The position numbers were made by a program, and so were the translations under genes. Positions 33,733 through 42,537 of a stretch of DNA of 45,423 nucleotides are shown in pieces. Source of the DNA: Acholeplasma sp. (GTDB lineage: Bacteria > Bacillota_I > Bacilli_A > Acholeplasmatales > Acholeplasmataceae); the NCBI GenBank assembly GCA_012838065.1, contig DUPY01000011.1, positions 1 to 45,423 on the forward strand, given 5' to 3'. Numbering within the stretch: the stretch's first letter is position 1; every line of letters starts with the position of its first letter. A model generated the notes under the pieces. It had not been told where the DNA came from. It ran no database searches and was given only the letters and a program-made list of their open reading frames with translations.

Positions 33733-33751
33733 TTGCTAAAGCTGTTTTTTT
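33717..33751 (+). terminator. Terminator after yidD and its partner
   Basis: AGCTTTAGCAA-ATTAA-TTGCTAAAGCT is followed by GTTTTTTT. The 11-bp stem overlaps the stop codon of the YjdF-like gene and ends just before the convergent antiporter gene. Confidence 0.88.
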
Positions 33752-35050
33752 ATACTTTTTCACATTCAATTTCAACATGCTCTTGCGCTTCACCGGCACC
33801 TTTGAGTGATTTTACTAACAACATCGGTGCGAAGAATTCAAAGATCAACACACTCGTTAATACAATGTTTTTAATTAAAGTTGCTTGTGCATCTGCGCTA
33901 CCTGTAACAAACCATAGTGTTCCCACACTTGCTGCTAAGAAAATTTCAAATCCACCTTGTGTCAAACATGCTGTAGGTAAAAATTTCTTAACTGTGTCTG
34001 GATTGTTTTTATCTAATCGAGAGCCGAAATATGCACCTATGAATTTACCACCAGCGTGTGCTACAACATAGAGTAATGCATATAAACCAAAGTCACCTAG
34101 TTTTGTTACGTCCAATTCAGCACCTGCGATAACAAAGAATGCCGTGATTAGTGGAGGCGTAAAGTTATTAATGATACTTGTCTCATAAGCGTATGTTTCT
34201 TTATTAATAAAGTTTGTGTAGATTGCACCAAGCATTAACGCTGAAATGAATGGTGAAATCATAATATTGGAGCTAATAGTGTTTGTAATAATTGGTGCAG
34301 CTAATGTTGCGACTAATACGATAGCTACCGTCATAATTAAATAGGAGTCATATTTTTCTCATCACAGTAACGACATAAAACAAACTTATCTAACAACACT
34401 AAAATGGCACCTGCAATACCACCAAGTAAGATTGATCCAAAAATACTTGCTAGTGGAACTAAAAATGAACCCAATGTTAATGCTGTTTTCATTTTTAATG
34501 ATGCAGCAATTGTAACAATAATTAAGAATGCACTAATACCGATAACATTGTCTAAACCCAAATTAGAAATTAATGTATCTGTAAGTGGTCCTTTTGATTG
34601 GTGTTTTTTAGTAATTTCAAGTACTGGTGCACTTGCTGTTGCAACGCTAATACCACCAATTAGTAAACTAACCCATAATTCTAAACCTGCAATATAAAAT
34701 AAGATTGTAGATAACCCTATAATTGCTAATGTTTGAATCGTTAGAGTCCAAAGAATTGTTTTAATATGTTTTCTTAATTTTGGTAACCAAAGTTTTGTCC
34801 CAAGTGTAAATGATAAGAAACCTAATGCGATAACGGATACAACTTCTAAGTTGTGAACAATATCGTGGAACTCATGTTTCATTGGTAAGACCAATGTGAA
34901 TAATAGATTCAATAAAATACCTGAAATAATATAGCCTGTAACTTCTGGCAATTTAATTCTTTCTGCAAGTTTTCCAAAGCCATGGCCAACAATAATCATA
35001 ATTGCAAGGGCTAAAATTGTATGATAACCCGTAACTTGAAATAATAACAT
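33750..35050 (-). pseudogene. Cation:proton antiporter (CPA family), frameshifted
   Basis: Two adjacent frames together encode one CPA-type antiporter of about 430 residues. The first (34337-35050, 237 aa) has KLPEVTGYIISGIL, SVATASAPVLEIT and KGPLTDTLISNLGLDNVIGI. The second (33750-34334, 194 aa) has FFVIAGAELDVTKLG and AHAGGKFIGAYFG. The break lies at CCTATTTAATTATG: one extra T in the T-run would read PILIMTV straight through. The second part has no ribosome binding site. The core DD motif seen in many relatives reads D-N here, also suggesting loss of activity. The gene starts 12 bases after proS. A sequencing error or recoding is the alternative. Confidence 0.75.
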
Positions 35051-37450: not shown

Positions 37451-38177
37451 AAATTTCTAGATTATTAATAATATTTTCATAACGTTTAACAAGTAAACCT
37501 GTTATAAACTCTACAAGTGGTGTTAAATTCTTTTCAATCTTAAAGATTTCTAAGTTTTTGAAGTACTCTTCTCTTAATCCAACTGGTACTTAGACAGGTA
37601 GATAACCAGCTTTAATCAAATAGTAATTCATGAGTAGTCTTGCAACACGTCCATTTGCATCTAAAAAAGGATGTATTTTGGAAATTGCTGCATTTATATA
37701 TACAGCACGCTCAATTGGTGTGCCTTCAAAATCCGCTAAGTTTCTAAATACTTTTGCCATCCGATCATAGACTTTCACATAATCAGGTGGTTGATGGGTT
37801 GCACCAATAATTTGAATATTTACATTTCTGTAAACGCCACCTTGGAATATACCGTCAACTAAAAGTTCATGTAAATCCTTTAGCATGTCTTCTGTGACGT
37901 CTCGGTTTTCCGCAGCATATTTTTTTACCCATTCAAAAGCTTTAACATGATTTAAAACTTCTTTTTGTTCGCGTTCGCTATATTCTGGTAATGTTTTATG
38001 CTTTATTAAGCGCTTAACGTCTTCAAAAGGAATTTTATTTTTTCCTTCCATGCTAATTGCATCATACGTATAGACATAAGTAAATTGCTCTTCTTCAAGT
38101 GAAAATTTGTTTTCATCGCACTCTTTTAGCAAGTTACTTAAGTTTTTACGCTGTACTTCTAATAAATCTTTGTCCAT
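37449..38177 (-). pseudogene. Fic-domain protein with premature in-frame stop
   Basis: Fic proteins transfer AMP (or related groups) onto hydroxyl side chains. The core motif is KIHPFLDANGRVARLLMN (family HxFx[D/E]GNGRxxR, with Ala for the first Gly). A SMEGKN segment near residue 45 resembles an inhibitory helix. The frame from ATG 38177 (AGGAG eight bases upstream) meets TAA at 37590-37592 after GYLPV. The same frame then continues for 46 sense codons (VPVGLREEYFKNLEIFK...) to TGA at 37449, beside a terminator. The truncated ~195-residue product keeps the catalytic loop but loses the last helices, so it may be unstable. Fic is often part of toxin-antitoxin systems, but no partner is seen. 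Confidence 0.75.
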
Positions 38178-38272
38178 ATGCATCGCTCCTGTCCTTTTTT
38201 TTTATTATAGCATAAAAGCGCTATCATAAACAATACAATATGTATTTGAATGCAAAAAAAACAAATAAAAAC

Positions 38273-41303: not shown

Positions 41304-41552
41304 TTACACATTAATGACTAAATTTATTGCTTCATCAATATCTTCAATTTTCACTTGATGCTTCTTTTCTATTTGTTGAATTAGATTGTTTGTTGTAACA
41401 AGCGATAGTACCTTTTCAACTCCTGATTTAACTGCTTTAAGCTGAATCGTTAAATCTTTACAGCTTTTTTCCTCTTCCATCATATTCAATATACCTTGAA
41501 GCTGTCCTTGAATTCTTTTAATTCGATTCATAATTGTTTTATCACATTTCAT
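41304..41552 (-). CDS. CsoR/CstR-family transcriptional repressor
   Basis: This 82-residue DUF156 all-helical repressor starts MKCDKTIMNRIKRIQGQLQGI, as CsoR, FrmR and CstR proteins do. The first sensing cysteine is present (Cys31 in EKSCKDL). The position of the second, Cys60 in the persulfide sensor CstR, is Gln60 here (NNLIQQI). The His and Cys of copper-type CsoR are absent, so copper sensing is unlikely. An extra Cys3 may substitute. It overlaps the rhodanese gene by 4 bases (ATGA). With rhodanese as partner, persulfide or sulfide sensing is the best guess. Confidence 0.85.
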   Translation of the reverse strand: MKCDKTIMNRIKRIQGQLQGILNMMEEEKSCKDLTIQLKAVKSGVEKVLSLVTTNNLIQQIEKKHQVKIEDIDEAINLVINV

Positions 41553-41845
41553 ACTAATTCTCCTTTATATGTTGCTATACCACCTAAAACATTGATAACT
41601 TGATAGCCTTGTTTTTTTAATATCCTTGCAGCATCCAATGATCGACTACCAGTTCTACAAACAATGTAATATTCTTTCCCTTTATCTAAATCATCTATTT
41701 TATGCATCTGTATGTATGATAGAGGTATATTGATTGATCCTTTAATATGACCAGATTCATATTCTTCTTTTTCTCTTACATCAATAATTGAAACTGCCTT
41801 TTTTCTCATTTCATATTCTAATTCCAAGGTCATGACTGTTTTCAT
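41549..41845 (-). CDS. Single-domain rhodanese (sulfurtransferase)
   Basis: This 98-residue rhodanese-fold protein transfers sulfane sulfur via a persulfide on the active-site Cys63 in YYIVCRTGSRS. It also has IIDVREKEEYESGHIKGSINIP and the C-terminal NVLGGIATYKG. It carries no signal peptide or second domain. It is the first gene of a two-gene operon with the CsoR/CstR-type repressor, a pairing known from the cst system of Staphylococcus aureus. Its promoter is overlapped by a repressor-like inverted repeat. Confidence 0.93.
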   Translation of the reverse strand: MKTVMTLELEYEMRKKAVSIIDVREKEEYESGHIKGSINIPLSYIQMHKIDDLDKGKEYYIVCRTGSRSLDAARILKKQGYQVINVLGGIATYKGELV

Positions 41846-41878
41846 AAATATACCTCATTAAAAGATTTTCTATTATAT

Positions 41879-41906
41879 TTTATACCCCTACATGTATTTT
41901 ATGCAA
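41879..41906 (-). promoter_or_regulatory. Promoter of rhodanese-repressor operon with CsoR-type operator
   Basis: TTGCAT (41901-41906) and TATAAA (41879-41884) on the minus strand are spaced by 16 bp. The spacer and -10 hold ATACCCCTACATGTAT (41882-41897). This has ATAC/GTAT arms around a C-rich core, as in CsoR-family operators. Self-repression by the neighbouring repressor is inferred. Confidence 0.55.
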
Positions 41907-41990
41907 TAAAAACGCATATTTATACATATATCGCCTTCATTTTCATGAATATTTGGAGGATTCATTTGTCAAGGCGTGTCAAATGACCTT

Positions 41991-42010
41991 TTATACCGGT
42001 CATGGTATAA
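41991..42010 (+). promoter_or_regulatory. Palindromic CsoR-type operator upstream of the CxxC membrane protein
   Basis: TTATACC-N6-GGTATAA is a perfect inverted repeat. It overlaps TATAAT (42006-42011 region), which has a TGACC-type -35 17 bp upstream. It shares the TATACC half-site with the divergent rhodanese promoter, so one repressor may control both sides. Confidence 0.6.
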
Positions 42011-42030
42011 TGATTAAAAAGGGGGAAATC

Positions 42031-42537
42031 ATGATTAAAGAAGCCTTTAATATGCAAAAAGAAAAGAAATACATCATACAAGGCACTATATTCCTTTTCT
42101 TATTTTTACTCATTTATTTTATTGTTGATTATTTAAATATGACTTATATGGAAATGCGCATAAACTTTGGTACTTATTTAGTTGTAATCAATATTACGCT
42201 AAATATCATTATGGCTCTACTATCGACACTTATGATGAACTTAAGTACTGCACTTGTTGTTATTAAGGGTAAGGATAATCCCGCAAGTAATTTAGGGTTT
42301 CTATCAATTTTATTCGGTATTTTAACGTATGGGTGCACAAGCTGTGTCATTACATTTTTCGCAACCATCGGTATTAGTTTATCTGTGATTGCGTTACCAC
42401 TTGCCGGCTTACCATATAAGTTTATATCACTCGTTTTAATTATTTTTGGACTGTTTTTCATCTTACAGTCTCTAAAAAAACCATATTGTAAGTTAACAAA
42501 AGCAAAATCAAACGAATATACAATTCGATTAAAATAA
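42031..42537 (+). CDS. Small membrane protein with intramembrane CxxC, divergent from rhodanese/CstR
   Basis: I do not recognise a named family. The 168-residue protein has four predicted membrane segments (about residues 15-35, 48-78, 88-120 and 128-147). A Cys102-x-x-Cys105 motif (YGCTSCVITFF) lies within the third segment, and Cys153 follows the last. ATG 42031 is used because GGGGGAAATC precedes it; an earlier TTG frame from 41953 would run through the operator. Its promoter carries a CsoR-type palindrome. Export or redox handling of sulfane sulfur, sulfite or a thiophilic metal is a guess from context. Confidence 0.7.
   Translation: MIKEAFNMQKEKKYIIQGTIFLFLFLLIYFIVDYLNMTYMEMRINFGTYLVVINITLNIIMALLSTLMMNLSTALVVIKGKDNPASNLGFLSILFGILTYGCTSCVITFFATIGISLSVIALPLAGLPYKFISLVLIIFGLFFILQSLKKPYCKLTKAKSNEYTIRLK

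Follow-up and report, generated by a model that had tools for sequence, protein, structure and literature searches.

A CsoR-family repressor with a relocated sensing cysteine and a putative thiol/persulfide regulon including a new membrane protein in Acholeplasma sp.

Genes and putative operators of the locus

The analysed stretch (the window, 45,423 nucleotides) belongs to a small, wall-less Acholeplasma sp. with a genome of 1.18 Mb in 67 contigs (98% complete). It encoded a rhodanese and a CsoR-family repressor, overlapping by 4 bases, and a divergent membrane protein, hereafter MEM (Table 1). This layout, including the CxxC of the membrane protein, had been predicted from the sequence alone; its coordinates were correct, and Pfam matches were obtained for the rhodanese and the repressor. 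Elsewhere in the window, a cation:proton antiporter-like gene was split into two adjacent minus-strand ORFs (34337-35050 and 33750-34334), possibly by a frameshift or a stop within 33750-35050, and a Fic-like ORF (37590-38183, minus strand) had an apparently truncated C terminus.

Table 1. Features of the divergent locus (window positions)
Feature	Position	Strand	Remarks
CsoR-family repressor	41304..41552	-	82 aa; PF02583, E 7e-18
Rhodanese, single-domain	41549..41845	-	98 aa; active-site loop CRTGSRS; PF00581, E 6e-19
Degenerate operator	41882..41897	-	ATACCCCTACATGTAT, equal to ATACATGTAGGGGTAT on the minus strand; one mismatch; upstream of rhodanese-repressor
MEM promoter-like site	41983..42011	+	ATGACC-17-TATAAT, TG before -10; best promoter-like site of the region
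Perfect operator, putative	41991..42010	+	TTATACC-GGTCAT-GGTATAA; overlies the MEM promoter at its spacer and -10
MEM	42031..42537	+	168 aa; 4 predicted TM helices, termini predicted inside; no Pfam family
CxxC codons (C102-T-S-C105)	42334..42345	+	invariant; opens second half of helix 3
C153 codon, third invariant Cys	42487..42489	+	closely follows helix 4; cytosolic by prediction

The original prediction also placed matching inverted repeats at both promoters, one of them perfect. The MEM repeat was indeed perfect, and the rhodanese one degenerate. When a weight matrix trained solely on sites of other genomes was applied to the 45-kb window, the MEM operator ranked first (8.5 bits, with 0.2 sites expected per window at 8 bits or more) and the rhodanese-side site fourth (4.3 bits). 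As about one site of the latter score is expected per window, the rhodanese-side operator is weak by sequence and convincing by its position only.

Perfect copies of ATACC-N6-GGTAT occurred three times in the 1.18-Mb genome: before MEM, 42 bp upstream of an unlinked operon for thioredoxin reductase (TrxR) and protein disulfide oxidoreductase (PDO) (L055/L118), and once (C44) within a coding sequence, the last being regarded as a chance occurrence. With one mismatch allowed, 40 matches were obtained genome-wide versus 48 for the reversed control, so the loose pattern is uninformative by itself. Across 714 kb of related loci, 48 distinct perfect sites were found and none for the reversed pattern. 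Forty of these were located directly upstream of regulon genes (26 before the repressor, 9 before MEM, 3 before TrxR, 1 before CoA-disulfide reductase (CoADR), plus that of the window, which lies between the rhodanese and MEM), a tally to be read as consistency evidence rather than as an unbiased genome-wide count, because the loci were gathered around these genes, which favours finding sites there. Of the remaining eight, several preceded either a repressor whose gene start was mis-called or a thioredoxin-rhodanese-repressor operon.

Cysteines of the repressor

With 65.2 bits against PF02583 (cut-off 22.8), the window repressor falls within the CsoR/RcnR (DUF156) family. Its N terminus reads MKC, its only cysteines are at positions 3 and 31, and residues 56 and 60 are Asn and Gln. 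Searches of the relatives and of the class displayed a sharply bounded subfamily, with members scoring at least 110 bits and all other sequences at most 73. C3 and C31 were present in all 40 distinct members examined, the X cysteine (C31) being invariant as is absolute in the CsoR/RcnR family, while C60 was missing in 38 of them. Two sequences of genus g150 combined C3, C31 and C60, and outgroup repressors harbored C60 and lacked C3. In a tree built on 85 columns only, whose inner forks are soft, a supported branch (96/100) separated the C3-only set from the rest, with C3+C60 repressors next to it and C60-only ones beyond. Three-cysteine repressors (C3, C31, C60) encoded in a thioredoxin-rhodanese-repressor operon of family f16 (L113, L109, L112) likely represent an evolutionary intermediate. 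Such a natural series, from C60 only through C3+C60 to C3 only, could help to explain how a CsoR-family sensor moves its reactive partner and yet keeps its regulon.

CstR proteins, the persulfide-sensing CsoR-family repressors of Staphylococcus and Enterococcus (YrkD in Bacillus licheniformis), use cysteines at positions X and Z (C31/C60 in S. aureus and C31/C62 in E. faecalis; PMC5480029, PMC9405070). The window repressor shares with them the CsoR fold, the X cysteine C31, and an Asn in place of the metal-ligand His at position Y. It differs by the absence of the Z cysteine (C60/C62), a Gln standing there, and by the invariant C3, so the X-Z pair implied by the original assignment as CstR-type was lacking. 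The Cys-His-Cys set of copper CsoR at X-Y-Z was also broken (Asn at Y and Gln at Z), while the copper-type paralogues compared kept His and Cys, and copper sensing appears unlikely because position Y carries Asn instead of the metal-ligand His.

The closest parallel for an N-terminal partner is FrmR, a formaldehyde sensor in which the N-terminal W position (Pro2) and the X cysteine (Cys35) form an inter-subunit cross-link (PMC5016687, PMC5146963). A comparable use of the N-terminal region and the X cysteine is proposed for the window repressor, where a C3-C31' bridge would follow from FrmR geometry. The N terminus departs from that of FrmR in lacking Pro2, its partner residue being a cysteine about 4 residues nearer the core (C3-C31 spacing of 28 versus 33 for Pro2-Cys35), and the regulon is without a frmA-type target. 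The subfamily appears to combine a W-like location with cysteine chemistry.

Regulon composition across relatives

Two arrangements dominated among relatives. One was repressor-TrxR-PDO, shortly preceded by the operator; the other was CoADR-rhodanese-repressor, a linkage found in six relatives. The rhodanese orthologue adjoined the repressor in L031, L067, L069, L072, L074, L078 and L135. PDO exceeded the NCBIfam TIGR02187 cut-off, and TrxR was closest to TIGR01292. The PDO of the window's genome (L118 3264-3905, G000:C8) had lost the CxxC of its N-terminal domain and retained a C-terminal CPHC; PDO of relatives kept the N-terminal-domain CxxC (e.g., CEMC in L002).

Control of a rhodanese and of persulfide-handling genes, typical of CstR, was seen by linkage only, the rhodanese sharing the operon of the repressor. 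The CoADR of L031, with its C-terminal rhodanese domain, had the same architecture as CoAPR of Enterococcus, which is encoded in a cst-like operon and targeted by CstR (PMC9405070). As with CstR, the regulon includes a rhodanese, to which relatives add this CoA-disulfide/persulfide reductase; unlike with CstR, the main targets are TrxR-PDO or thioredoxin together with a new membrane protein. SQR, persulfide dioxygenase and TauE were not seen among the neighbours. A true CoADR was apparently absent from the window's genome, where the best match was a dihydrolipoyl-dehydrogenase-like ORF with 26% identity.

In relatives, MEM was repeatedly associated with the same genes. MEM, TrxR and PDO formed a single gene run with an operator in L002-L004, and L133 displayed the order TrxR-PDO-MEM-repressor with the operator site before TrxR. 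In L109, L112 and L113, MEM and a thioredoxin-rhodanese-repressor operon faced each other, both sides carrying an operator, so that the arrangement of the window recurs in another family. MEM was also found beside CoADR (L031, L018), MsrB (L044, L053) and glutathione peroxidase Gpx (L124); the operator of L031 and L018 sits between MEM and CoADR, which places MEM outside the repressed unit there. Among 101 relatives, MEM was present in 18 of the 23 genomes with PDO versus 27 of the other 78 (Fisher p 3e-4), and it co-occurred with the repressor (p 0.003), kinship being ignored in both cases.

Given the unlinked TrxR-PDO site and the association of MEM with these genes in relatives, either within an operon or facing thioredoxin-rhodanese-repressor, the gene set appears to be a thiol/persulfide regulon that is dispersed over the genome, exceeds a module of two promoters and is apparently centred on TrxR and PDO. 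Of the compact cst-like sulfur module originally proposed, the CstR-like sulfur/thiol link and the matching operators were retained, the regulon itself reaching beyond the window. The novelty lies in a CstR-type regulon variant with a relocated sensing cysteine, and no report of this regulon was found in the literature searched.

The membrane protein and its candidate role

The MEM family was found in the class Bacilli (42 of 392 genomes of the phylum), and C102, C105 and C153 were invariant in 41 diverse members. Charge bias suggests that both termini of the four-helix protein lie inside, that the CxxC falls at the break of helix 3 and that C153 faces the cytosol; the structure model was of moderate quality (pLDDT 80) and weakest between the loop preceding helix 3 and the CxxC. 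The original prediction could not name the family, and neither could the searches: no family match was obtained in Pfam or NCBIfam, the best PDB hit by hmmsearch was a cytochrome trimer (E 0.025), and Foldseek with two models gave no E below 1. Of the outcomes that would have refuted the original prediction, neither a neighbourhood conserved in no relative nor membership of MEM in an unrelated known family was observed.

MEM recalls CcdA/DsbD by its membrane-buried Cys pair and its genomic tie to cytosolic thioredoxin-type reductants, and is set apart from them by its lack of sequence match and by its four helices with one CxxC and a tail cysteine. None of the family members (sets of 48 and 41) matched PF02683 (CcdA/DsbD), nor did anything in the window's genome, which is among the 96 of 101 relatives from which CcdA/DsbD was missing. 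Because the repressor appears to control thioredoxin-type enzymes together with a protein bearing a buried Cys pair, MEM probably partners the thiol-repair machinery at the membrane. Its best reading is a candidate thioredoxin-coupled membrane dithiol relay, in lineages mostly devoid of CcdA/DsbD. Of the two roles first suggested for MEM, thiol redox partner is indicated by its neighbours, and no evidence was obtained for exporter.

The operators, the gene linkage, the invariant cysteines and the recurrence in several families are read directly from sequence, whereas repressor binding, the inducer, the C3-C31' bridge, and the topology, chemistry and direction of MEM are inferred as follows, with a probability of roughly 55% that a C3-C31' sensor derepresses thiol reductants together with a MEM dithiol relay. 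Thiol-oxidising or persulfidating stress would act on the C3-C31' pair, the repressor would leave its ATACC-N6-GGTAT operator, and the rhodanese, the unlinked TrxR and PDO, and MEM would rise together. C153, at the cytosolic face, would exchange with PDO or thioredoxin and then with the intramembrane C102/C105, which would either pass reducing equivalents to the outside or draw sulfane sulfur and oxidants from the membrane. In E. coli, thioredoxins and glutaredoxins remove sulfane sulfur (PMC6831875). The window's genome yielded no extracytoplasmic thioredoxin that could serve MEM as acceptor, both of its thioredoxins looking cytosolic; this disfavours a simple equivalent of the CcdA pathway and would be compatible with a membrane acceptor of sulfane sulfur or oxidants. 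More tentatively, MEM could be a new, minimal kind of transmembrane relay for thiols or sulfane sulfur that is powered by thioredoxin/PDO and takes the place of CcdA/DsbD in wall-less Bacilli and their relatives, and the repressor could be a new sensor subtype in which C3-C31' replaced C31-C60' via a three-cysteine intermediate.

It is rather unlikely that MEM serves instead as a conduit for sulfur species, with C153 and C102/C105 handing on sulfane sulfur or sulfide so that it crosses or leaves the membrane, as TauE would do beside the Staphylococcus cst operon. MEM is co-regulated with a rhodanese in the window and in L109/L112/L113 and adjoins CoADR-rhodanese-repressor in L031, and the CstR-regulated genes of S. 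aureus include TauE, a putative sulfonate/thiosulfate exporter (PMC5480029). However, the commonest co-regulated partners, TrxR-PDO, reduce sulfur and do not move it, the MsrB and Gpx neighbours have no sulfane link, and MEM has only four helices and matched no transporter family.

Transport of soft metals seems improbable. MEM would act like MerT/MerC, with an intramembrane Cys pair followed by a cytosolic Cys after a later helix. Compared with plasmid-derived MerC and MerT sequences by hhalign, MEM 100-144 fell on the MerT Cys-pair stretch, PY(R/K) loop and next helix, and GCTSC on GCAAC of MerC, but no alignment or profile match was significant (probability 1-3%, P 0.015-0.05), and kinship with these proteins was rejected. 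A search for the MerC family in the phylum returned sub-threshold matches only. Moreover, the neighbourhoods differ, no metal gene occurred among the closely read neighbours, and metal sensors carry a His-Cys combination at Y and Z that the repressor does not have.

In most genomes MEM was without operator, and in many it lay beside unrelated genes (PotA, TetR-ABC), from which it is probably an older protein recruited by the regulon in some lineages; that it is a housekeeping protein with a fortuitous site in the window, the repressor governing its own operon and the enzymes only, is improbable, as an operator about 20-35 bp before MEM recurs in three families (the window, L002-L004, three g150 genomes and L128).

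The link to a defined regulon gives an uncharacterised, strongly conserved family a testable function, and hints at how thiols that become oxidised or persulfidated at the membrane might be handled in bacteria without CcdA/DsbD. In L128 (3348-3363, G278), the MEM of another family (f21) had a perfect operator 29 bp upstream. In many Acholeplasmataceae (L006-L029 and similar), MEM was flanked by a PotA-like ABC gene on one side and by a TetR regulator plus ABC exporter on the other, without operator, while in L030 (G084:C44) it lay directly 3' of apparent Rnf-type electron-transport genes.
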